From positions 186,001-250,000 of the forward strand of contig JALWTD010000018.1 of assembly GCA_027082925.1 (NCBI GenBank): a stretch of 64,000 nucleotides of DNA, written 5' to 3'. Origin of the DNA: Flavobacteriaceae bacterium (lineage in GTDB: Bacteria > Bacteroidota > Bacteroidia > Flavobacteriales > Flavobacteriaceae). Positions 45,096 to 61,402 of this stretch are shown here, piece by piece. The position numbers and the translations under genes are program-made. The notes under the pieces were generated by a model. That model ran no database searches and was not told the origin of the DNA. It worked only from the letters and a program-made list of their open reading frames with translations. Within the stretch, counting starts at the first letter, position 1, and the number at the start of each line of letters is the position of its first letter.

Positions 45096-45248
45096 TTAAA
45101 TAAAATAGAAAAAACTTTTTTGTTAACTAAAAAATACTAACATTTGTTGCGATAAATGAAGTACCTAGTAGTAAATATTATAATGATTCAAATTTTTGTG
45201 ATTATCAATCGTAAAAATTAGGAACGTTATTATACATATTTCAAGTTA

Positions 45249-45287
45249 AAAAACCTTCCTAAATAAATTTTTAGGAAGGTTTTTTAA
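45249..45287 (+). terminator. Terminator upstream of ilvD
   Basis: A 13-bp perfect stem AAACCTTCCTAAA (45251-45263) / TTTAGGAAGGTTT (45270-45282) with a 6-nt loop is followed by a T run. Confidence 0.92.
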
Positions 45288-50933: not shown

Positions 50934-52195
50934 TGAAAGTACAGGTAAAAAATAGAATTTCTTTAGAAGATATTTACAAGGCTCAACAAAATGTCAAAGG
51001 AGTAGTAGAACATACTCCTTTGGTTTATATGAAAAACTTTTCTCAAAAGTACCAAGCCAATATTTATTTTAAAAGAGAAGATTTACAAGTAGTTCGATCT
51101 TACAAAATTAGAGGTGCATTTAATAAAATTCAAGGACTCTCTAAAGACGCGTTGTCAAATGGTATTGTTTGTGCAAGTGCCGGAAACCATGCACAAGGTG
51201 TTGCTTATGCTTGTAAAAAGCTAAAGGTAAACGGAACTATTTTTATGCCGGTAACCACTCCTCATCAAAAAATTAATCAAGTAAAAATGTTTGGAGGTGA
51301 ATTTATTCGCATTCAACTCTTTGGTGATAGCTTTGACGATAGTCAAAAGGCAGCTAATAATTATTGCAATACCACTCAAAGTACCTTTGTTCATCCTTTC
51401 AACGATTTAGATGTGATTGCAGGTCAAGGTACTGTTGCTCTGGAAATACTAAACGACAGCAGCTCAAAAATAGATTATTTATTTCTTCCTGTTGGAGGAG
51501 GAGGCTTGGCTTCAGGAGTCTCAAGTGTATTTAAAACCTTAAGTCCGCATACCAAAATTATAGGTGTAGAGCCCAAAGGTGCTCCTTCGTTAACAACATC
51601 GTTAAAAAATGGAAAAAACACCACACTTCAGCATATTGAGAAATTTGTTGACGGCGCAGCGGTTAAGCGTATGGGAGATTTAACATTTCAGTTTTGTAAA
51701 GAACTGCTAGACGATACTGATACGATTAACGAAGGACTTATTTGCTCTACCATTTTAAAAGTTTATAATGAAAATGCTTTAGTGGTTGAACCTGCTGGAG
51801 CATTAGCCATTGCGGCATTAGAAAATCATAAAGAACAAATAAAAGGAAAAACGGTAGTGTGTGTGGTAAGTGGCGGAAATAACGACATTACCAGAATGGA
51901 AGAAATGAAAGAACGCGCGTTACTATACGAAGGACTAAAACATTATTTTATTATAAAATTTCCACAGCGAGCAGGAGCCCTTAAAGAGTTTGTTGTAGAT
52001 GTATTGGGAGAAAACGATGATATTTCTTATTTCGAATACACTAAAAAAAATAATAGAGATAAAGGTCCGGCGGTAGTAGGTATTGAACTTACATCTAAAA
52101 ATGATTTTGAACCTTTGGTAAAAAGGATGGAAGAAAAAGGATTTTTAGGAGAATACCTAAATAACAACCCCGAATTATTTCAATTTTTAATTTAA
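50933..52195 (+). CDS. ilvA: Threonine dehydratase (biosynthetic)
   Basis: This 420-residue PLP enzyme makes 2-oxobutyrate for isoleucine. The PLP lysine is in RSYKIRGAFNKI, and the phosphate-binding glycine loop is PVGGGGLASG. The C-terminal about 85 residues (from LKHYFIIKFPQRAGAL) form a single ACT-like regulatory domain, as in the shorter Firmicutes-type IlvA rather than the two-domain E. coli protein. It closes the ilv operon. The arginine-operon leader region follows. Confidence 0.94.
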   Translation: MKVQVKNRISLEDIYKAQQNVKGVVEHTPLVYMKNFSQKYQANIYFKREDLQVVRSYKIRGAFNKIQGLSKDALSNGIVCASAGNHAQGVAYACKKLKVNGTIFMPVTTPHQKINQVKMFGGEFIRIQLFGDSFDDSQKAANNYCNTTQSTFVHPFNDLDVIAGQGTVALEILNDSSSKIDYLFLPVGGGGLASGVSSVFKTLSPHTKIIGVEPKGAPSLTTSLKNGKNTTLQHIEKFVDGAAVKRMGDLTFQFCKELLDDTDTINEGLICSTILKVYNENALVVEPAGALAIAALENHKEQIKGKTVVCVVSGGNNDITRMEEMKERALLYEGLKHYFIIKFPQRAGALKEFVVDVLGENDDISYFEYTKKNNRDKGPAVVGIELTSKNDFEPLVKRMEEKGFLGEYLNNNPELFQFLI

Positions 52196-52287
52196 GGATA
52201 CTTAAAAAATTAAACAAAACAGATAAATAGTGTTAAATAATTAACACGTTAAATATTCGTATCGTTATTTTACGTAATATTGTACCA

Positions 52288-52362
52288 ATGAAAATGCACA
52301 TTTCACATACAACTGTTTTATCTCCCATTCGCTTTACTGGGGAGCCGCGCTGTATTCGCTAA
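52288..52362 (+). CDS. Possible leader peptide 1 of the arg operon (24 residues)
   Basis: This ORF starts ATG-AAA-ATG and ends SPIRFTGEPRCIR followed by TAA. All three arginines (15, 21, 24) use CGC, an uncommon codon in this AT-rich genome, and the last sense codon is Arg. The ATG follows a -7-like TAATATTG (52275-52282) by only 5 nt, so the mRNA might be nearly leaderless. A leader-peptide role is inferred from position, codon content and structure. Confidence 0.45.
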   Translation: MKMHISHTTVLSPIRFTGEPRCIR

Positions 52363-52467
52363 TACACCAACTTACACCACAAAAACAGTTTTATTTATTT
52401 TCATAGAATACCTTTAATTTTGCAATCACTTTTTTACATAACATTTTTATCAAATCCGACATTCTCT

Positions 52468-52524
52468 ATGTCAGATAAAAAAGTAGTGCGTTTTATACCT
52501 AGTCGTCGCCCCGTATGGGCGTAA
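52468..52524 (+). CDS. Possible leader peptide 2 of the arg operon (18 residues)
   Basis: The peptide is MSDKKVVRFIPSRRPVWA. Arg8 is CGT and the tandem Arg13-Arg14 pair is CGT-CGC. The ATG lies in the 3' arm of a hairpin (GACAT-TCTCT-ATGTC, 52458-52472). A CGCCC/GGGCG hairpin spans the end of the ORF. The tandem Arg codons ahead of an arginine operon are the classic layout for ribosome-mediated attenuation. Confidence 0.5.
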   Translation: MSDKKVVRFIPSRRPVWA

Positions 52525-52537
52525 TTAATACTATTTT

Positions 52538-52558
52538 GAAAACGGTGCGTCCGTTTTC
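52538..52558 (+). promoter_or_regulatory. Terminal hairpin of the arg leader
   Basis: GAAAACGG-TGCGT-CCGTTTTC is a perfect 8-bp stem. It is 47 nt before the GNAT start codon and lacks a long T run, apart from the TTTT within its 3' arm. The CGTTTT in mini-ORF 2 (52489-52494) could pair instead with the AAAACG of its 5' arm (52539-52544), giving an alternative fold. Confidence 0.55.
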
Positions 52559-52604
52559 CTTCACAACACACATCAAATAAAAATTCTAATTAAATCATAA
52601 AACA

Positions 52605-53222
52605 ATGAAAGTTGTTATAGCTAATAAATTGCATATAAAATATGCAGATATTATTTGTGAAACCATTAAAGATTCTGCAAAAGTAAGAGGTACAGGTATT
52701 GCAGAAAGAACACCTGAATACATTACCCAAAAAATAGAAAATGGCAATGCGGTAATAGCAATTCACAATAACGAGTTTGCAGGTTTCTGCTATATAGAAA
52801 CCTGGGACAACAAAGAGTTTGTGGTAAACTCAGGACTTATTGTTCATCCTAAATTTAGAAATCAAGGACTGGCTAAAAAAATAAAGCAAAAAATTCTTGA
52901 ATACTCTAAAGAAAAATACCCCGACGCTAAAATATTTGGAATTACAACGGGTCTTGCAGTGATGAAAATTAATTATGAATTAGGATATCAGCCGGTAACA
53001 TTTTCTGAATTGACTAATGATGATGCTTTTTGGAATGGGTGTAAAACGTGTAAAAATTACGATGTGTTAATGAGAACAGATAGAAAAATGTGTTTTTGTA
53101 CAGCAATGTTATACAACCCAAATCATAAAACACTTGTGCAAAGACATCCGTATAACTCAAAAGCATTGAGCAGGTTAAAAAAAATAAAACAATCATTATT
53201 TCTTAAAAAAAGTAACGTATAA
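52605..53222 (+). CDS. GNAT N-acyltransferase, probable N-acylglutamate synthase
   Basis: This 205-residue GNAT has the acyl-CoA loop FRNQGLAKKIKQKI (residues 84-97). An unusual Cys cluster follows the fold: GCKTCKN (Cys146, Cys149) and KMCFC (Cys163, Cys165), probably a metal knuckle. As first gene of an arginine operon that has argB, argC, argD and argE but no argA or argJ, it most likely makes the N-acylglutamate that starts the pathway. Whether the acyl donor is succinyl-CoA or acetyl-CoA is open, though the ArgF' residue choice favours succinyl. argG begins 1 nt after its stop. Confidence 0.75.
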   Translation: MKVVIANKLHIKYADIICETIKDSAKVRGTGIAERTPEYITQKIENGNAVIAIHNNEFAGFCYIETWDNKEFVVNSGLIVHPKFRNQGLAKKIKQKILEYSKEKYPDAKIFGITTGLAVMKINYELGYQPVTFSELTNDDAFWNGCKTCKNYDVLMRTDRKMCFCTAMLYNPNHKTLVQRHPYNSKALSRLKKIKQSLFLKKSNV

Positions 53223-53223
53223 A

Positions 53224-54411
53224 ATGGAAAAGGTAGTAGTAGCATATAGCGGAGGTTTAGACACCTCATTTTGTGTAAAGTATTTGCAGAATGAATTAAA
53301 ATTGGAAGTACATAGTGTGTTGGTAAACACCGGAGGGTTTTCAAAAGCAGCACTTAAAGAAACCGAAAAAAAAGCATATGAAATGGGTGTTTTTTCTCAT
53401 GTAAACAAAAATATTTTGGATGTTTATTATAACAAAGCTATAAAGTATATGGTTTTTGGAAATGTGTTAAAAAATAACACATATCCTTTATCTGTTAGTG
53501 CTGAGAGGGTTTTTCAAGCTATTGAAGTGGTGAAATACGCAAAAAAAATAGGTGCAAAATACATTGCACATGGAAGTACCGGAGCCGGAAATGATCAAGT
53601 GCGGTTTGATATGATTTTTCAGACCATAGCTCCTGAAATAGAAATTATTACACCTATTAGAGATTTAAAACTATCTAGACAAGAAGAAATCACTTATTTG
53701 CAAAAATATGGAGTAGACTACACGTGGAATAAAGCAAAATATTCTATAAATAAGGGAATTTGGGGTACCAGTGTTGGAGGAGTTGAAACACTTACATCTA
53801 ACGAATCGTTACCTGAAAGTGCATACCCTAGCCAATTAGAAACCACCACACCTACAAATGTAACACTGCACTTTAAAAAAGGAGAATTGGTAGGTTTAAA
53901 TAACGAATTTGATACGCCTGTAAATGTAATTCTGAAATTAGAAAGTATTGCTTCTAAATATGCTATTGGTAGAGATATGCATGTAGGAGATACCATTGTA
54001 GGAATTAAAGGAAGAGTTGGTTTTGAAGCCGCTGCAGCCTTAATCATTATTAAAGCGCACCATGTTTTAGAAAAACATGTATTGAGTAAATGGCAGCAGT
54101 ATTGGAAAGAACAATTGGGAAACTGGTACGGAATGTTATTGCACGAAGGGCAATATTTTGATCCTGTAATGAGAAATATTGAAACTTTTTTAACAGATTC
54201 TCAAAAAACAGTTTCAGGAGATGTGTTGGTTAGTTTAAAACCGTATCATTTTACAGTTAACGGAATTGAATCTAAACACGATTTAATGAAATCTAAGTTT
54301 GGAGAATACGGAGAAACCAATAAATCTTGGACTGCCGAAGAGGCAAAAGGATTTATTAAGGTACTTGGAACAGCTACTAAAATTTACCATCACGTAAACT
54401 CAGAATTATGA
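53224..54411 (+). CDS. argG: Argininosuccinate synthase
   Basis: This 395-residue enzyme joins citrulline and aspartate using ATP. It has the PP-loop AYSGGLDTSF, the citrulline/aspartate-binding region IAHGSTGAGNDQVRFD and a C-terminal helix for tetramerisation. It overlaps argC by 4 nt. Confidence 0.96.
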   Translation: MEKVVVAYSGGLDTSFCVKYLQNELKLEVHSVLVNTGGFSKAALKETEKKAYEMGVFSHVNKNILDVYYNKAIKYMVFGNVLKNNTYPLSVSAERVFQAIEVVKYAKKIGAKYIAHGSTGAGNDQVRFDMIFQTIAPEIEIITPIRDLKLSRQEEITYLQKYGVDYTWNKAKYSINKGIWGTSVGGVETLTSNESLPESAYPSQLETTTPTNVTLHFKKGELVGLNNEFDTPVNVILKLESIASKYAIGRDMHVGDTIVGIKGRVGFEAAAALIIIKAHHVLEKHVLSKWQQYWKEQLGNWYGMLLHEGQYFDPVMRNIETFLTDSQKTVSGDVLVSLKPYHFTVNGIESKHDLMKSKFGEYGETNKSWTAEEAKGFIKVLGTATKIYHHVNSEL

Positions 54412-55382
54412 TAACAGTTGGAATTGTAGGAGGAGCAGGTTATACCGCAGGAGAACTTTTAAGACTTCTTGTAAATCATTTAAAAGTAACAATAGACTTT
54501 GTTTTTAGTACGTCAAATGCAGGAAATTACATTTCTCAAGTACACCAAGATTTGGTGAATATAGATTTGAAATTTACAAGTACTATTCATAAAAACGTCG
54601 ATGTTGTATTTTTATGTTTGGGACATGGAAATTCAACTGCATTTTTACAAGAGAATGCTTTTTCTGAAAAAACAAGAATAATAGATTTAAGTAACGATTT
54701 TAGGCTTCAGCAAAAAGCTTCTTTTCAACATCGAAGTTTTGTGTACGGTTTACCTGAATTTCAAAAGGAAGCGATTAAAAAGGCTAAAAATATTGCCAAT
54801 CCGGGTTGTTTTGCAACAGCAATTCAATTGGCATTGTTACCACTGGTTAAAAGTAATTTATTAAATAGTTCTGTACATATAAATGCTACAACTGGAGCTA
54901 CAGGAGCAGGTGTTTCGCCTAGTGAAACTACACATTTTAGTTGGAGAGATAATAATTTTTCTGTCTACAAAGCTTTTACGCATCAACATTTAGGTGAAAT
55001 ACAGGAAACACTTACTTGCTTACAGTCCAATTTTAACAAGGAGTTATTTTTTATTCCAAATAGAGGAAATTTTAGTAGAGGCATTTTTGCATCTATTTAC
55101 TTAAACTTTGACAACACCACTGAAGAAGTATTTGAAATGTATGAAGATTTTTATAAAAACGAACCGTTTACATTCATTTCTAAATCGCCAATTCATTTAA
55201 AGCAAGTGGTAAATACAAATAATTGCATAATTCATTTACAAAAACACAATAATACACTACTTATTACATCGGTAATAGACAATTTGTTAAAAGGAGCTTC
55301 CGGACAAGCAGTGCAAAATATGAATTTAATGTTTGGGTTTGAGGAGACAGAAGGATTACACTTAAAAGCATCAACATTTTAA
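54408..55382 (+). CDS. argC: N-acyl-gamma-glutamyl-phosphate reductase
   Basis: This 324-residue NADPH-dependent reductase has the N-terminal nucleotide site GIVGGAGYTAGELLRLL, the catalytic cysteine in ANPGCFATAIQLALLPL and a C-terminal His in FIPNRGNFSRGI. It acts on N-acetyl- or, here, probably N-succinyl-glutamyl phosphate. Confidence 0.94.
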   Translation: MITVGIVGGAGYTAGELLRLLVNHLKVTIDFVFSTSNAGNYISQVHQDLVNIDLKFTSTIHKNVDVVFLCLGHGNSTAFLQENAFSEKTRIIDLSNDFRLQQKASFQHRSFVYGLPEFQKEAIKKAKNIANPGCFATAIQLALLPLVKSNLLNSSVHINATTGATGAGVSPSETTHFSWRDNNFSVYKAFTHQHLGEIQETLTCLQSNFNKELFFIPNRGNFSRGIFASIYLNFDNTTEEVFEMYEDFYKNEPFTFISKSPIHLKQVVNTNNCIIHLQKHNNTLLITSVIDNLLKGASGQAVQNMNLMFGFEETEGLHLKASTF

Positions 55383-55392
55383 AAGAACACGT

Positions 55393-56184
55393 ATGAAAAT
55401 AGCCATTTTAGGAACCGGAAATTTAGGTTTATCAATAGCAAAAGGAATAGTTAATGGAGGGGTAGGTTTCCAATCGTTATACCTTACCAAACGGAATACA
55501 TCGTTACTAGAAAGTTGGAATTCAAAGCCAAAGGTAACGGTTACTTCAAGCAATTCAGAAGCTGTTAAAAATGCAGAGATAATACTAATTGCAGTGCAGC
55601 CTAAGCAGTTACAAACAGTTTTAAATGAAATTAAGCCGTTTGTAGTTTCAGAAAAGCACACGATTATTTCAGTAATTACAGGTAGAAAAATTAGTGAGAT
55701 AGAAAGTGTTTTAGGAGAACAAGTTGCCATTATTAGAAGTATGCCTAACACGGCTATTTCAGTGGCACAATCTATGACTTGTTTGTGTGCAAATACAAAA
55801 GGTGAGAAAAACCTTTTTTTAGCAAAAAACATATTTAATTCGCTGGGAAGAACTCTGGAAATCGACGAAAAACTAATGCAGGCATCAACGGTTATTTGTG
55901 CAAGTGGAATCGCTTTTTGGATGCGTCTCATAAGAGCTACAACACAAGGCGCTATTCAGTTAGGCTTTGATGCTAAAGAAGCACAAGAACTATCAATGCA
56001 AACTTGTTTGGGAGCGGCTAGTTTATTGGTTTCTTCAGGAAGTCACCCTGAAGAAGAAATAGATAAAGTTACCACGCCAAGTGGCTGTACAATTGAAGGA
56101 TTAAATGAAATGGAACACCAAGGATTAAGTTCTTCGTTAATTAAAGGTTTGGTGGCTTCATTTGAAAAAATAAATCAGATTTAA
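55393..56184 (+). CDS. proC: Pyrroline-5-carboxylate reductase
   Basis: This 263-residue enzyme makes proline from pyrroline-5-carboxylate. It has the Rossmann start ILGTGNLGLSIAKGI, the IRSMPNTAISV motif and the C-terminal signature TPSGCTIEGLNEME. It sits inside the arginine operon, 10 nt after argC and before argD. proA and proB are not in this window. P5C could come from ornithine or glutamate semialdehyde made elsewhere. Confidence 0.93.
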   Translation: MKIAILGTGNLGLSIAKGIVNGGVGFQSLYLTKRNTSLLESWNSKPKVTVTSSNSEAVKNAEIILIAVQPKQLQTVLNEIKPFVVSEKHTIISVITGRKISEIESVLGEQVAIIRSMPNTAISVAQSMTCLCANTKGEKNLFLAKNIFNSLGRTLEIDEKLMQASTVICASGIAFWMRLIRATTQGAIQLGFDAKEAQELSMQTCLGAASLLVSSGSHPEEEIDKVTTPSGCTIEGLNEMEHQGLSSSLIKGLVASFEKINQI

Positions 56185-56194
56185 ATTAAACGGT

Positions 56195-57325
56195 ATGGAA
56201 TTATTTGATGTATATCCGTTGTACAATGTTACGCCTGTGAAAGCTGAAGGTGTTTACGTGTGGGACGATAAAAATGTAAAATATTTAGACATGTACGGTG
56301 GGCATGGCGTTATTTCTATTGGGCATTCACATCCAATATACTTAGCATCGTTGTCAAATCAGTTAAAACACATCGGATTTTATTCAAATGCCGTTCAAAA
56401 TCCGTTACAGCAACAATTGGCTAAAAAGTTAGGCGCACTTTCGGGTTGTGAAGATTATAAATTGTTTTTGTGTAATTCGGGAGCTGAAGCAAATGAGAAT
56501 GCCTTAAAATTGGCTTCATTTAAAACAAAAAAACAAAGAGTTATAGCATTTAAAAATGCTTTTCATGGAAGAACATCTGCCGCAGTTGCTGCTACAGACA
56601 ACGATAAAATTAACGCTCCTATTAACAAACAGCAAGAAGTTACATTTTTACCATTAAATAATATCGATTTAGTTAAAATGGAACTTGAAAAAGGAGATGT
56701 TGCAGCTGTAATTATTGAAGGTATTCAAGGCGTTGGCGGTTTAGATGAAGGCTCAACAACATTTTTTAAAGCACTTCAAAAAGTGTGTTTAGACAACAAT
56801 GCGCTATTAATTTTAGACGAAATTCAATCGGGATATGGCAGAACCGGAGCATTTTTTGCTTTTCAGCATCATAAAATTCAACCAGATATTATTACAGTTG
56901 CTAAAGGAATGGGAAATGGGTTTCCGGTAGGAGGTGTTTTAATAGCTAACAATATTGAAGCTACATACGGAATGTTGGGAACTACCTTTGGAGGAAATCA
57001 CTTGGCTTGTGCTGCATCATTAGCTGTTTTAGAAGTGATTAAAAGTGAAGATTTACTAGCTCACGTAAATGAGGTTTACCAATATTTTTTGGAGCAAATA
57101 AAATCGGTGTCACAAGTAAAAAAAGTAAAAGGAAAAGGATTAATGCTAGGTGTTGAGTTTGATTTTGAAGTAGGCACATTGCGAAAACGCCTTATTTACG
57201 AAAAACACATTTTTACAGGAGGTTCAAGCAATAAAAATTTATTGCGAATTCTACCGCCTTTAACTGTTACAAAAGCTCAAATAAATCAATTTGTAAATGC
57301 ATTAAAAAGTTTGTTGAATGAATAA
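56195..57325 (+). CDS. argD: N-acylornithine aminotransferase
   Basis: This 376-residue class III PLP aminotransferase has GGHGVISIGHSHP, the PLP contacts NSGAEANENALKLA, LDEIQSGYGRTG and the PLP lysine in ITVAKGMGNGFPVGG. It converts N-acylglutamate semialdehyde to N-acylornithine. It overlaps argF' by 8 nt. Confidence 0.93.
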   Translation: MELFDVYPLYNVTPVKAEGVYVWDDKNVKYLDMYGGHGVISIGHSHPIYLASLSNQLKHIGFYSNAVQNPLQQQLAKKLGALSGCEDYKLFLCNSGAEANENALKLASFKTKKQRVIAFKNAFHGRTSAAVAATDNDKINAPINKQQEVTFLPLNNIDLVKMELEKGDVAAVIIEGIQGVGGLDEGSTTFFKALQKVCLDNNALLILDEIQSGYGRTGAFFAFQHHKIQPDIITVAKGMGNGFPVGGVLIANNIEATYGMLGTTFGGNHLACAASLAVLEVIKSEDLLAHVNEVYQYFLEQIKSVSQVKKVKGKGLMLGVEFDFEVGTLRKRLIYEKHIFTGGSSNKNLLRILPPLTVTKAQINQFVNALKSLLNE

Positions 57326-58268
57326 TTTTATAAACATATCAGATTTAAAAGATATTGATAAAGCAATAGAAGAAGCTATTTTGTTAAAAAAGCATCCTAC
57401 GAAGTATCAAAATATTGGAAAAAATAAAACCATAGGTTTATTGTTTTTTAATTCAAGTTTAAGAACACGTTTAAGTACTCAAAAAGCAGCGATTAACTTG
57501 GGAATGAATGTAATGGTAATGAATTTTTCTAAAGAAGGTTGGGCTTTAGAGTTTGATGATGGCGTGTTAATGAACAGTTCAAAATCGGAACATATAAAAG
57601 AAGCGGCTCAAGTTATTTCACAATATTGTGATATTGTTGCAGTACGAGCTTTTGCAGAATTAAAAAGTAGTGCAATAGATAATCAAGATAAAGTAATAAA
57701 CGGATTTTTAAAGTACGCCACTATTCCTGTTGTAAATATGGAAAGTGCGACAGGACATCCGCTACAAGCTTTAGCCGATGCTATTACAATTGCAGAGCAT
57801 ACACAAAAGAAACAACCAAAAATAGTATTGTCTTGGGCACCACACCCAAATGCCTTACCACAAGCTGTAGCAAATTCATTTGTAGAAATGCTACACCAAA
57901 CATCGGCTAGTTTTGTAATTACACACCCAAAAGGGTTTGAGTTAAATAGTGAAATCACAAAAAATGCAACGATAGAATACAATCAAGAAAAAGCCTTTGA
58001 AAATGCCGATTTTATTTATGTTAAAAACTGGAGTTCTTATACAAATTATGGAAAAACCTCTCAAGATGAAACATGGAAAATTACAATCGCTAAAATGAAA
58101 TTGACAAACCAAGCTAAATTTATGCATTGCTTACCTGTAAGAAGAAATGTTGTGGTTGATGATGCTGTTTTAGACGGCGAAAATACATTGGTTATACAAC
58201 AAGCAAATAATAGAACATACGCTGCTCAGGTAGTGCTTAAAAAAATTTTAGAAAATGAAAAGAAATAA
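57318..58268 (+). CDS. argF': N-acylornithine carbamoyltransferase, probably N-succinylornithine type
   Basis: This 316-residue transcarbamylase resembles Bacteroides fragilis ArgF'. It has the carbamoyl-phosphate motif FFNSSLRTRLSTQKAA (residues 43-58), where ordinary ornithine carbamoyltransferase has STRTR. It also has ATGHPLQALADA and MHCLPVRRN. The specificity residue, Pro90 in B. fragilis SOTCase and Glu92 in Xanthomonas AOTCase, is Ser90 here (NSSKSEHIKEA). From memory of published work, replacing Glu92 by Ser turns AOTCase into SOTCase, so an N-succinylornithine substrate is likely. It overlaps argB by 14 nt. Confidence 0.9.
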   Translation: MNNFINISDLKDIDKAIEEAILLKKHPTKYQNIGKNKTIGLLFFNSSLRTRLSTQKAAINLGMNVMVMNFSKEGWALEFDDGVLMNSSKSEHIKEAAQVISQYCDIVAVRAFAELKSSAIDNQDKVINGFLKYATIPVVNMESATGHPLQALADAITIAEHTQKKQPKIVLSWAPHPNALPQAVANSFVEMLHQTSASFVITHPKGFELNSEITKNATIEYNQEKAFENADFIYVKNWSSYTNYGKTSQDETWKITIAKMKLTNQAKFMHCLPVRRNVVVDDAVLDGENTLVIQQANNRTYAAQVVLKKILENEKK

Positions 58269-59040
58269 ACTTCAAATTGTAAAAATAGGAGGAAATGTTA
58301 TAGAAGATGATGTTGCTTTAGCTTCATTTTTAAAAGATTTTTCAGCAATTAATAATGCTAAAATTTTAGTTCATGGAGGTGGTAAATTAGCAAGCAAACT
58401 GGCGCTTAAACTAGGCCTTCAACCGGTAATGATTGACGGTAGAAGAGTTACAGATAAATCTAATTTAGAGGTAGCAGTAATGGTGTACGGCGGATTGGTA
58501 AATAAAAATATTGTCGCCGCCTTGCAGGCAAACAATACAAATGCTATTGGGTTATCAGGTGCAGACGCAAACCTTATCCAATCGGTAAAAAGACCGGTTA
58601 AAGAAATTGATTACGGTTTTGTAGGAGATATTGTAAAAGTAAATAGCAATACATTAAAATTGTTTATTGAAAACAATATGACTCCTGTTTTTTGTGCATT
58701 AACTCATGATAGAGAGAAACAATTGTTAAATACAAATGCAGATACAATTGCTGCCGAGATAGCAATTTCTATGAGTGCTTATTTTGAAGTAGAACTAAAT
58801 TACATTTTTGAGCTAAAAGGTGTATTGAAAAATATAGCCGATAAAGATTCGGTAATACCTCATTTAAACAAAACTACATACAAAAAATTGGTTGAAAATA
58901 ACACGATAAGCAGCGGTATGCTTCCAAAGCTAAAAAATTCTTTTGATGCGTTGCAAAAAGGCGTTTTTAAGGTGAAAATAGGAGCTACACAAGCCATAAA
59001 AAATAATGGTGCTGTTTGCACAACTTTAAGTTTAAAATAA
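58255..59040 (+). CDS. argB: N-acylglutamate kinase
   Basis: This 261-residue amino-acid-kinase-fold enzyme has KIGGNVIEDD, the glycine loop VHGGGKLASKLALKLG and the substrate site NTNADTIAAEIA. It phosphorylates the gamma carboxyl of N-acylglutamate. It belongs to the shorter, E. coli-like branch without the N-terminal arginine-sensing helix, so arginine inhibition is not predicted. Its stop overlaps the argE start. Confidence 0.93.
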   Translation: MKRNKLQIVKIGGNVIEDDVALASFLKDFSAINNAKILVHGGGKLASKLALKLGLQPVMIDGRRVTDKSNLEVAVMVYGGLVNKNIVAALQANNTNAIGLSGADANLIQSVKRPVKEIDYGFVGDIVKVNSNTLKLFIENNMTPVFCALTHDREKQLLNTNADTIAAEIAISMSAYFEVELNYIFELKGVLKNIADKDSVIPHLNKTTYKKLVENNTISSGMLPKLKNSFDALQKGVFKVKIGATQAIKNNGAVCTTLSLK

Positions 59041-60098
59041 TGATTGATATACTAACAAAAGAGGCTATTGTATTGCTTAAAAATTTAATTTCAACACCTT
59101 CTTTTTCAGGAGAAGAAGATAAAACGGCAGAATTAATTTCGAATTGGTTTTTAGCACATCAAATTCCTTTTAAAAGAAACAATAATAATGTTTGGGCTGT
59201 AAATAAAAATTTTGATGCAGCTAAAAAAACCATTTTGTTAAACTCGCATCACGATACGGTTCAACCAAATAAAGGATATACTAAAAATCCGTTTACGCCT
59301 GAAGAAAATGATGGTAAATTATACGGTTTGGGAAGTAACGATGCCGGAGGATGTTTGGTTTCTTTACTAGCACTATTTACCTACTTTTATGATAAAAAAG
59401 AGCTGAATTACAATTTAGTAATAGTTGCTTCTGCAGAAGAAGAAAGTTCAGGGTCAAAAGGGCTTAATAGTATGTTGCCAATAATTCCTGAAATAGATTT
59501 TGCTATTATTGGAGAACCTACACTTATGCAATTAGCTGTTGCTGAAAAAGGATTACTCGTGTTAGATTGTTATGCAAAAGGAACACCCGGCCATGCAGCA
59601 CACGGAAAAGGAGACAATGCAATTTACAACGCTATAGAAGCTATTCATTGGTTTAAAAATTTTCAATTTCCAAAACAATCGGCAGCATTGGGAAGTGTTA
59701 AAATGACCGTTACTCAAATTGATGCAGGTAATCAGCATAACGTTATTCCTGCAAGTTGTCATTTTGTGGTAGATATAAGGGTTACCGATAAATACTCAAA
59801 TCAAGAAGTACTAGACATTGTTAAGTCAAGTGTAAATTGTGAAGTAAAACCAAGATCGTTAACGCTAAATTCTTCATCAATCCCAATAGAGCATCCTATT
59901 GTAAAAGCAGGTGTTAAATTAGGAAGAAAAACATACGGTTCACCAACACTTTCAGACCAGTCAGTACTAAGTTGTCCATCGCTTAAATTAGGCCCGGGAG
60001 ATAGTTTAAGATCTCATACCGCTAATGAGTTTATTTATATGGATGAACTAAAAGAGGGAATAGATTTGTATATAAAAATGCTGAAAGAAATAATATAA
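59040..60098 (+). CDS. argE: N-acylornithine/N-acylcitrulline deacylase (M20 family)
   Basis: This 352-residue M20 zinc hydrolase has metal ligands in NSHHDTV, GLGSNDAGG and SAEEESSGSKG, and a late His in LRSHTANEF. In the route implied by ArgF' it would act on N-succinylcitrulline to release citrulline. I chose the ATG at 59040, overlapping the argB stop by one base. An upstream TTG at 59016 lies inside argB. Confidence 0.9.
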   Translation: MIDILTKEAIVLLKNLISTPSFSGEEDKTAELISNWFLAHQIPFKRNNNNVWAVNKNFDAAKKTILLNSHHDTVQPNKGYTKNPFTPEENDGKLYGLGSNDAGGCLVSLLALFTYFYDKKELNYNLVIVASAEEESSGSKGLNSMLPIIPEIDFAIIGEPTLMQLAVAEKGLLVLDCYAKGTPGHAAHGKGDNAIYNAIEAIHWFKNFQFPKQSAALGSVKMTVTQIDAGNQHNVIPASCHFVVDIRVTDKYSNQEVLDIVKSSVNCEVKPRSLTLNSSSIPIEHPIVKAGVKLGRKTYGSPTLSDQSVLSCPSLKLGPGDSLRSHTANEFIYMDELKEGIDLYIKMLKEII

Positions 60099-60118
60099 CA
60101 ATTAAAAACACTTACACA

Positions 60119-61402
60119 ATGAAACTTTGGGATAAAGGATATTCAACAGATCAGAAAATTGATTTATTTACTGTTGGTAACGATAGGGAATTGGATTTAA
60201 TTTTGGCTAAATACGACGTTATTGGAAATATAGCTCATGCTAAAATGCTTCATGAGATAGGAATTTTATCAGATTCAGAAGTTTACAATTTGAATAAAGA
60301 GCTAGAAACAATCTTAGTACAAATAAAGGAAGGTCATTTTATTATAGAAAGTAATTTTGAAGATGTACATTCTAAAATTGAATTTTTACTAACAGAAAAA
60401 TTAGGAGCTACCGGAAAAAAAATACACACAGCAAGATCTAGAAATGATCAGGTGTTGGTAGATGTACATTTATATGTAAAAGATGCTTTAGAAGGTGTAA
60501 ATAACGACATTGGTTTATTGTTTGATTTGTTGCTATCACTTGCAAAACAGTATAAAGAAGTACTGTTGCCGGGGTACACGCATTTACAAGTGGCAATGCC
60601 TTCATCGTTTGGAATGTGGTTTTCGGCGTATGCCGAAAGTTTAATAGATGATATTTATATTTTAAAAGCAGCATATAAAGTGGCCAATCAAAATCCTTTA
60701 GGCTCTGCAGCCGGTTATGGAAGTTCGTTTCCTATAGACAGAGAATTAACAACAACGCTGTTGCATTTTGGCACGTTAAAATACAATGCTGTTGCAGCAC
60801 AAATGAGCAGAGGAAAGTTAGAAAAAACAGTATCTTTTGCATTGAGTTCTGTAGCGAGCACTCTTTCTAAAATGAGTATGGATATTTGCTTGTATATGAG
60901 CCAAAATTTTAATTTTATTTCTTTTCCCGATGAGCTAACAACAGGCTCAAGCATTATGCCTCATAAAAAAAACCCTGATGTTTTTGAATTAATAAGAGGA
61001 AAGTGCAACAAGCTTCAAGCACTTCCGTACGAATTTACACTTATAACTAATAATTTACCAAGCGGATATCACAGAGATTTGCAACTGTTAAAAGAAGGGT
61101 TAATACCTGCATTTTCAACATTAAAATCATGTTTAGAAATGCTTACCTACTCGTTGCAAAACATAAAAGTAAATACCACAATAGTAAATGATGAAAAATA
61201 CACGTATATGTTTAGTGTAGAAGCGGTAAACGAGCTGGTAAAAAACGGTACACCTTTTAGAGATGCTTATAAAATAGTTGGGAAAAGTATAAATGAAGGC
61301 ACGTTTAGTCCTAAAAAGGACATTAAGCATACACATTGTGGAAGTATTGGTAATTTGTGTTTAAACGAAATTAAAAAGAAAAAAGAAAAAGCTGCTTTTT
61401 AA
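60119..61402 (+). CDS. argH: Argininosuccinate lyase
   Basis: This 427-residue fumarase/aspartase superfamily enzyme gives arginine and fumarate. It has HTARSRNDQV, AMPSSFGMWFSAYAE and the lyase signature GSSIMPHKKNPD. It is the last gene of the arginine operon. Its stop overlaps the convergent pseudouridine synthase gene by 4 nt. Confidence 0.96.
   Translation: MKLWDKGYSTDQKIDLFTVGNDRELDLILAKYDVIGNIAHAKMLHEIGILSDSEVYNLNKELETILVQIKEGHFIIESNFEDVHSKIEFLLTEKLGATGKKIHTARSRNDQVLVDVHLYVKDALEGVNNDIGLLFDLLLSLAKQYKEVLLPGYTHLQVAMPSSFGMWFSAYAESLIDDIYILKAAYKVANQNPLGSAAGYGSSFPIDRELTTTLLHFGTLKYNAVAAQMSRGKLEKTVSFALSSVASTLSKMSMDICLYMSQNFNFISFPDELTTGSSIMPHKKNPDVFELIRGKCNKLQALPYEFTLITNNLPSGYHRDLQLLKEGLIPAFSTLKSCLEMLTYSLQNIKVNTTIVNDEKYTYMFSVEAVNELVKNGTPFRDAYKIVGKSINEGTFSPKKDIKHTHCGSIGNLCLNEIKKKKEKAAF

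Follow-up and report, generated by a model that had tools for sequence, protein, structure and literature searches.

Tandem arginine-codon leader ORFs and conserved hairpins ahead of the arginine operon of a Flavobacteriaceae bacterium: a probable ribosome-mediated attenuator

How GNAT-bearing Flavobacteriales control arginine biosynthesis is an open question, because ArgR, the usual arginine regulator, is nearly absent from those sampled. A search for this protein (PF01316) in 80 Flavobacteriales genomes that carry the GNAT gene discussed below returned a single weak match, just over the cut-off, and a Bacteroides genome searched as a control did give a match. The sample drew on GNAT-bearing genomes outside family f16, taking 80 of the 101 known; f16, with 19 such genomes of tiny size (0.6 Mb), contributed none. 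With one weak match in 80 genomes, ArgR was set aside as the regulator. Does the DNA ahead of the arginine genes hold a candidate for another one?

In the window (the whole stretch of DNA analyzed, 64,000 nt), an ilvA-like gene and a GNAT acetyltransferase gene flank a gap of 409 nt at 52196-52604. The first-pass annotation had placed this gap before an arginine operon of nine pathway genes, and both the coordinates and the neighbors agree with it: GNAT, argG, argC, proC, argD, an argF-type gene, argB, an ArgE/DapE-type gene, and argH follow (Table 1). The argF-type product is an N-acetylornithine carbamoyltransferase and the argE-like product an ArgE/DapE-family deacylase (NCBIfam/Pfam); the best models for argG, argD, and the ArgE-like protein match them with scores under the curated cut-offs, and the GNAT protein has general Pfam acetyltransferase matches only. 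The gap had also been described as locally GC-rich, which proved wrong, as its GC content is 30.8% compared to 33.0% for the window, and values near 40% are reached only in short stretches. The two short ORFs with Arg codons are present, and several of the predicted local hairpins reappear on folding the RNA; of 100 dinucleotide shuffles, 99 fold less well than the gap (z -2.35).

Table 1. Positions of features in and downstream of the leader (numbering of the window)
Feature	Position	Strand	Basis
Promoter -7-like box TAATATTG	52275..52282	+	sequence; recurs in relatives
Leader ORF 1, peptide MKMHISHTTVLSPIRFTGEPRCIR-stop	52288..52362	+	ORF; same layout in relatives
Stem S1, 5' arm, spans leader 1 start codon	52288..52295	+	perfect complement of 52397-52404
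Stem S2, 5' arm	52311..52319	+	perfect complement of 52382-52390
Hairpin CTCCC...GGGAG within leader ORF 1	52322..52344	+	RNA fold
Hairpin TGTATT-CGCT-AATACA, contains last Arg codon and stop of leader 1	52351..52366	+	RNA fold, sequence
Stem S2, 3' arm	52382..52390	+	relatives
Stem S1, 3' arm, ends 15 nt ahead of leader 2 start	52397..52404	+	relatives
TAATTTTG, exact -7 box fit, TTG start of leader 2 at its end	52415..52422	+	sequence
Leader ORF 2 from TTG, (M)QSLFYITFLSNPTFSMSDKKVVRFIPSRRPVWA-stop; alternative start ATG 52468	52420..52524	+	homologous ORF in relatives
Hairpin P1 in leader ORF 2, 5' of Arg codons	52455..52475	+	sequence, RNA fold
Hairpin P2, CGCCC-CGTAT-GGGCG, overlaps last Arg codon, ends at stop	52507..52521	+	70-locus alignment
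Hairpin P3, GAAAACGG-UGCGU-CCGUUUUC, U-tract absent 3' of it	52538..52558	+	70-locus alignment
Untranslated A/U-rich, G-poor stretch, P3 to GNAT start	52559..52604	+	composition over 70 loci
GNAT acetyltransferase, first operon gene	52605..53222	+	Pfam PF00583
argG, argC, proC, argD, argF-type, argB, argE-like, argH	53224..61402	+	profile matches

The comparative evidence comes from relatives of this locus. A search with the GNAT protein yielded 80 loci, one of which (L041) was left out for want of upstream DNA, and a script called the P3 hairpin in 75 of the remaining 79. Upstream DNA from another 45 genomic places was added, and the counts were made after the first 40 of these. The set of 91 loci used below consists of the 75 P3 loci, the window, and 15 further loci, and it includes near-duplicates (the leader of L086 is identical to that of L047). 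Four loci without a P3 call (L002, L003, L031, and L067) lie outside this set; in L031 an Arg leader is present and its P3 falls below the stem limit of the script. Counts over 70 rows were obtained by filtering the 91 loci for redundancy, which left 75, and then dropping the outgroups L105, L107, L110, L120, and L122.

Across the 91 loci, the ORF that ends just ahead of P3 carries a mean of 4.58 Arg codons among its last 20, compared to 0.99 in the other two frames. At least three Arg codons are found there in 87 loci, with the automatic choice of the leader 2 stop doubtful for L062 and L066, and 14% of 1,820 Markov-resampled sequences reach this number when similar selection is applied. This enrichment, together with the tie of P2 and P3 to the GNAT gene described below, supports the earlier suggestion of an amino-acid-sensing arginine leader. 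The clusters of the window itself are modest, with three Arg codons per leader, those of leader 2 lying within its last 20 codons. Third codon positions take a share of 0.39 (64 pairs), 0.41 (44 pairs), and 0.47 (2 pairs) of the substitutions in leader 2, compared to 0.34 in a non-coding control, a moderate skew drawn from pairs that are not independent. The stop codon of leader 2 lies 74-139 nt ahead of the GNAT start in the 91 loci.

The second ORF had originally been drawn from the ATG at 52468; the ORF itself stands, and its start was moved 48 nt upstream. Translation most likely begins at the TTG at 52420, because the homologous ORF of relatives starts at that point. The start codon of leader 2 is TTG in many tandem loci and ATG or GTG in single-leader loci, and L004 has an ATG exactly where the TTG stands. 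A second transcription start at TAATTTTG, giving a transcript that would lack leader 1 and the TTG, is possible. Most tandem relatives keep the TTG and lack the TA of the TAATTTTG-like box, and this loss, together with the ATG of L004, makes a start codon the better explanation for the conserved TTG. Hairpin P1, which has similar-looking counterparts in many relatives by eye, is a possible pause hairpin.

The peptide encoded by leader 2 might itself be the sensor. TnaC and SpeFL are arrest peptides, and a nascent Arg-rich peptide of this kind would sense free arginine and stall the ribosome at the stop codon. Many leader 2 peptides do end in RRP-stop or RRRP-stop, as might be expected of such a peptide, but the C-termini differ among loci (RRRP, RRPLRA, RRTFVRV, and RRPVWA), and outside the Arg codons there is little sequence conservation between genera. 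In the Lutibacter group, where the peptide ends in RPLRA or RPVWA, the stop codon has moved by some three codons and P2 and P3 keep their positions. An arrest peptide is therefore considered very unlikely.

Leader ORF 1 also has Arg codons, three (all CGC) among its last ten codons. The box TAATATTG resembles TAnnTTTG, which we take to be the Bacteroidetes -7 consensus, and it stands only 5 nt ahead of the start codon, so that the ORF would be near-leaderless. The same succession of box, 4-5 nt, and start codon is repeated at leader 1 of relatives, and a box within 12 nt of the start is present in all 43 hand-picked leader-1 loci, compared to 12% of random positions. Scanning for Arg-tailed ORFs whose start codon comes after a -7-like box reports leader 1 in 43 of the 91 loci, usually 4-5 nt past the box; of these, L044, L051, and L087 look spurious, and L098, which is tandem by eye, was missed. 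Tandem leaders are thus present in about 40 of the 91 loci. Of the 32 loci handled as single-leader, 10 lack a box directly before the leader. The third-position signal of leader 1 is weak (0.30, 0.34, and 0.36 over the three codon positions).

Two hairpins follow the Arg codons of leader 2 or overlap them. The four core pairs of P2 are formed in 96.4% of cells in the 70-locus alignment, with compensation at one pair (CG 58, AU 7, GC 1; CG changed in 8 rows). P3 comes after P2 at nearly constant spacing and has the loop UGNGU in 69 of the 70 loci and UGCGC in the other. Its inner pairs are GG/CC in 57 loci and GA/UC in 13, and its outer stem of six pairs exists in many sequence versions, with zero, one, or two bulged bases in 21, 27, and 22 loci. 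This outer stem is paired in 96.9% of cells, compared to a mean of 81.7% and a maximum of 86.4% in 2,000 mate shuffles in which the 3' arms were dealt to other loci and the bulge was re-chosen each time. In a 24-row set with a bulged A, the covariation of P2 and P3 is 0.190 compared to 0.090 after shuffling, a value that 0 of 500 shuffles reach. Measures of pair count and pair type are often equaled by shuffles (331 and 332 of 500 with 70 loci; 15 and 74 of 500 with 24 rows). RNAalifold missed the outer P3 stem in the 70-locus alignment because bulge variants shift the register, and the stem was counted by script instead.

Several other roles were considered for P3. It is not a repeated genomic element, as GGTGNGTCC occurs at three other sites of the same genome without a matching stem by eye, and a role for AGGUG resembling a Shine-Dalgarno sequence is untenable given the variants CGAUGCGUUC. 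P2 and P3 might instead form a small metabolite-sensing aptamer, that is, an arginine riboswitch, which would suit the nearly invariant P3 loop and the strict link to the arginine operon. Against this, P3 is a hairpin of 21-23 nt without a conserved junction, outgroup loops vary (UACGU or UCCGU, with L128 among the variants by eye), and an Arg-rich ORF nearly always lies alongside (87 of 91 loci), so that a riboswitch is highly improbable. Barely credible is a DNA operator for a repressor, despite the inverted repeat, about 20 bp long, that lies ahead of the operon. The invariant center TGNGT is asymmetric, the arms change while staying complementary with G-U pairs and one-sided bulges, and P3 lies well downstream of the promoter-like box.

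The leader can also be examined by asking where else its RNA structure occurs. A covariance model of P2 and P3, called R1, matches 47 of 80 genomes of the family at E<1e-3, with one match each; ten further matches have E values of 0.017 or worse. The GNAT gene is present in 51 of these 80 genomes (48 of 77 plus G000, G109, and G133), and R1 matches at the same threshold in 47 of the 51 and in 0 of the 29 without GNAT. Every one of the 47 matches is on the GNAT strand and upstream of that gene, at a distance of 37-93 nt, or 236 nt in G206. The operon genes were identified in the window, and in other genomes GNAT serves as the marker of the arginine operon. Among the four GNAT-bearing genomes without a match, G192 has a P2 and P3 like those of L009, G178 has a variant loop, G214 has no leader, and G210 has a short ORF without P3. 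Among 119 genomes of the class, only the genome of the window itself matches at E<=0.01; the family and class searches both used stricter filters, with which weak matches are lost.

Rfam 15 gave no match at the gathering threshold in the window, one chance-level match in 52150-52700 (E 0.44), and one chance-level match in the upstream regions of 20 relatives (E 0.39). The remark in the first-pass annotation that this leader could not be named is thus upheld, and where it had pointed to close relatives as the place to look for conservation, the leader ORFs and hairpins were found to be kept. As judged from these comparisons of sequence, the leader is a genuine and conserved element that belongs specifically to the arginine operon.

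Departures from the common layout offer hints regarding the role of P3. In L002 and L003, and likewise in seven genus g2 loci (probably Flavobacterium), leader 2 extends to 55-63 codons and reaches the GNAT start, most of its Arg cluster is lost, and P3 or its conserved loop is lost as well. The extended ORF overlaps the GNAT start as ATGA in L002, L003, L094, L097, and L101, and it ends at -4 in L099, L100, L102, and, by eye, L096. Since P3 or its loop disappears where leader 2 is extended, P3 seems to matter only where the RNA past leader 2 stays untranslated. Leader 1 with its Arg codons is kept in these derived loci, and in g2 its peptide has a conserved tail, (T)SPEVR. Two other g2 loci (L103 and L104) are without such a leader.

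The overlapping or abutting ORFs of the derived loci could be taken to mean that control is exerted on translation only, with ribosomes from leader 2 reinitiating at GNAT and P3 setting the efficiency of this process. In most loci, however, the P3 loop begins about 55-76 nt 5' of the GNAT ATG (109 nt in L068 and L093), and an A/U-rich gap separates the two, a distance too great for a direct block. Purely translational control is consequently judged quite unlikely.

Farther from the window, other arrangements appear. No Arg leader ORF was seen in the loci of f5, another family of the order (L111-L117 and L121), where AGATA-type boxes were noted by eye ahead of GNAT and ArgR was not found in the genomes; these loci likely use another regulator. 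In family f15, three loci (L109, L118, and L119) have a different leader ORF ahead of GNAT (MK.V.KY.P.E.PVL.IGIG..), which contains Arg codons and is accompanied by a hairpin of the GCGGG type; this may be an arginine leader that is either unrelated or has diverged very far.

The preferred explanation for these observations is that the GNAT-argGC-proC-argD-argF-argB-argE-argH operon is controlled by a ribosome-mediated arginine attenuator, which is probably correct. Its strongest inference is that sensing occurs by ribosome stalling at Arg codons. Transcription would begin just ahead of leader 1. Under a shortage of charged Arg-tRNA, ribosomes would stall on the Arg codons, and stalling at the end of leader 2 would keep P2 open and the RNA before P3 in an "on" state, in which RNA polymerase could proceed into the operon. 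With ample arginine, ribosomes would finish and release at the stop codon, P2 and P3 would form, and the untranslated G-poor stretch after P3 would become the site at which transcription ends or the RNA is cut.

Leader-peptide attenuators of the trp and his type have codons for the product amino acid in a leader ORF, the biosynthesis operon downstream, and hairpins over the codons. The arginine leader resembles them in that a leader ORF with Arg codons precedes an arginine operon and hairpins overlap these codons. It might therefore be asked whether P3 is an intrinsic terminator that competes with an antiterminator helix. The order of parts is right for this classical mechanism, with Arg codons, an adjoining P2, and then a GC-capped P3; a four-pair alternative between the P2 3' arm and GUYC of P3 is possible in 94% of cells, and in the outgroup locus L105, P3 is followed by a U-rich tail. 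Nevertheless, runs of at least four T in the first 9 nt past the P3 stem occur in only 8 of 70 loci, and no terminator-like site was found in 52100-52700.

The alternative pairing fares no better, since it is not maintained in the clade whose P2 arm reads GUGC, which breaks it by inspection. Alternative helices that join either P2 or the Arg codons to P3 were also rejected, as the partners are GC-rich and hence pair to a high degree, and the helices are broken in some clades. In the P2/P3 alignment of 111 columns, P2 and P3 were the only helices supported, and no antiterminator helix was. A classical attenuator is thus unlikely, and the arginine leader is not filed under the trp/his type because two of its defining features, a U-tract terminator and a maintained antiterminator helix, were looked for and not found; the tandem leaders of about 40 of the 91 loci are a further difference.

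The window happens to carry another leader with which this one can be compared. Upstream of ilvD, a peptide, MKYLVVNIIMIQIFVIINRKN-stop, is encoded at 45156-45221, followed by a strong hairpin and then TTTTTT at about 45248-45285. This ilv leader looks like a classical branched-chain amino-acid attenuator. Both leaders encode a peptide rich in amino acids of their operon, but the hairpin with TTTTTT is a feature of the ilv leader that the arginine leader does not share.

How, then, would the formation of P2 and P3 be converted into reduced expression? Because a U-tract is absent after P3, the output most likely depends on a factor, either Rho or a protein or nuclease that recognizes P3, rather than on an intrinsic terminator. 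The stretch after P3 contains 6.0% G and 16.3% C over 70 loci, compared to 10.6% G and 13.7% C in 24 other 5' regions of the window, and C exceeds G in 66 of the 70 loci compared to 17 of the 24 controls, a mild rut-like bias. Termination by Rho would fit both this G-poor stretch and the precedent of orf34-speF described below, and a protein or nuclease that binds P3 is an equally plausible means.

A role for leader 1 in the preferred attenuator can be sketched from the long-range helices. The two pairings predicted in the first-pass annotation are perfect complements, ATGAAAAT with ATTTTCAT in S1 and AACTGTTTT with AAAACAGTT in S2. Among 20 Lutibacter-type loci, S1 is paired in 97.5% of cells and shows no covariation, and because it hardly varies, its pairing says little. 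S2 has one covarying pair in the same loci (UA 12, CG 7, other 1). Taken together, the two stems are paired in 93.4% of cells compared to 92.1% after shuffling, with 13 of 500 shuffles as high. In other genera, the same two sites pair with different letters. The mean duplex energy of the sites is -14.0 kcal/mol for cognate partners compared to -9.3 kcal/mol for non-cognate ones, and across clades 12 of 37 cognate pairs beat every non-cognate pair. The best helix of tandem loci ends, on its 3' side, a median of 8 nt ahead of the leader 2 start (n=41).

Leader 1 might thereby provide a second sensing step, in which its early codons would pair just 5' of the leader 2 start and formation of the S helix could govern the frequency of leader 2 translation. 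In Flavobacterium johnsoniae, RNA structure is reduced from -20 to +20 around start codons, and structure in this region tends to reduce translation (PMC6847099), which makes such gating of leader 2 by the S helix plausible. A more elaborate version of the attenuator, which can be put forward only tentatively, is a two-stage, factor-dependent device of Flavobacteriaceae and near kin that replaces ArgR. A ribosome stalled on leader 1 would free leader 2, and the UGNGU loop of P3 would be read by a trans-acting factor, with Rho, a NusG-type factor, a nuclease, or some other trans-acting factor as equally tentative candidate readers.

The nearest precedent for such an output comes from Salmonella. 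Arg codons, a hairpin after the stop codon, and Rho act together in the orf34-speF leader, where ribosome pausing conveys the arginine response and termination is Rho-dependent (PMC6386406). The likeness is that of a long leader in which a short ORF has Arg codons in succession and a hairpin follows the stop codon (PMC6386406). The orf34-speF system itself controls ornithine decarboxylase in gamma-proteobacteria and has one ORF encoding a conserved peptide domain, DUF2618 (PMC6386406), whereas the arginine leader often has two ORFs, carries a different hairpin, and precedes an arginine biosynthesis operon.

The idea of leader-peptide attenuation is not new in this family, because strong clues for it before amino-acid operons have been reported in Flavobacterium psychrophilum, along with structured leaders that have no Rfam match, such as those of pheA, hisG, and others (PMC9723704, main text). 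The passages of that main text covered here describe neither an arginine leader nor tandem leaders nor P3. In Bacteroides thetaiotaomicron, small ORFs in long 5' UTRs are reminiscent of transcription attenuation, and one example, BT_4401, is not an arginine operon (PMC7366714); a Bacteroides genome does have ArgR. The work of Lopatovskaya et al. 2010, cited in PMC4833913, could hold related predictions. Among the literature matches listed, which leave most subscription journals outside, titles and abstract beginnings mention no Bacteroidetes arginine leader, tandem leaders, or P3.

For the GNAT-bearing Flavobacteriales sampled, which are nearly without ArgR, this leader represents a concrete, testable candidate for the control of arginine biosynthesis, and its P3 hairpin is a compact RNA motif. 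The tandem leaders are a natural setting in which to test how a pair of sensors for the same amino acid is integrated. If the proposed mechanism is true, amino-acid attenuation that functions without an intrinsic terminator, in mRNAs that lack Shine-Dalgarno sequences, would widen the range of regulation in Bacteroidetes.
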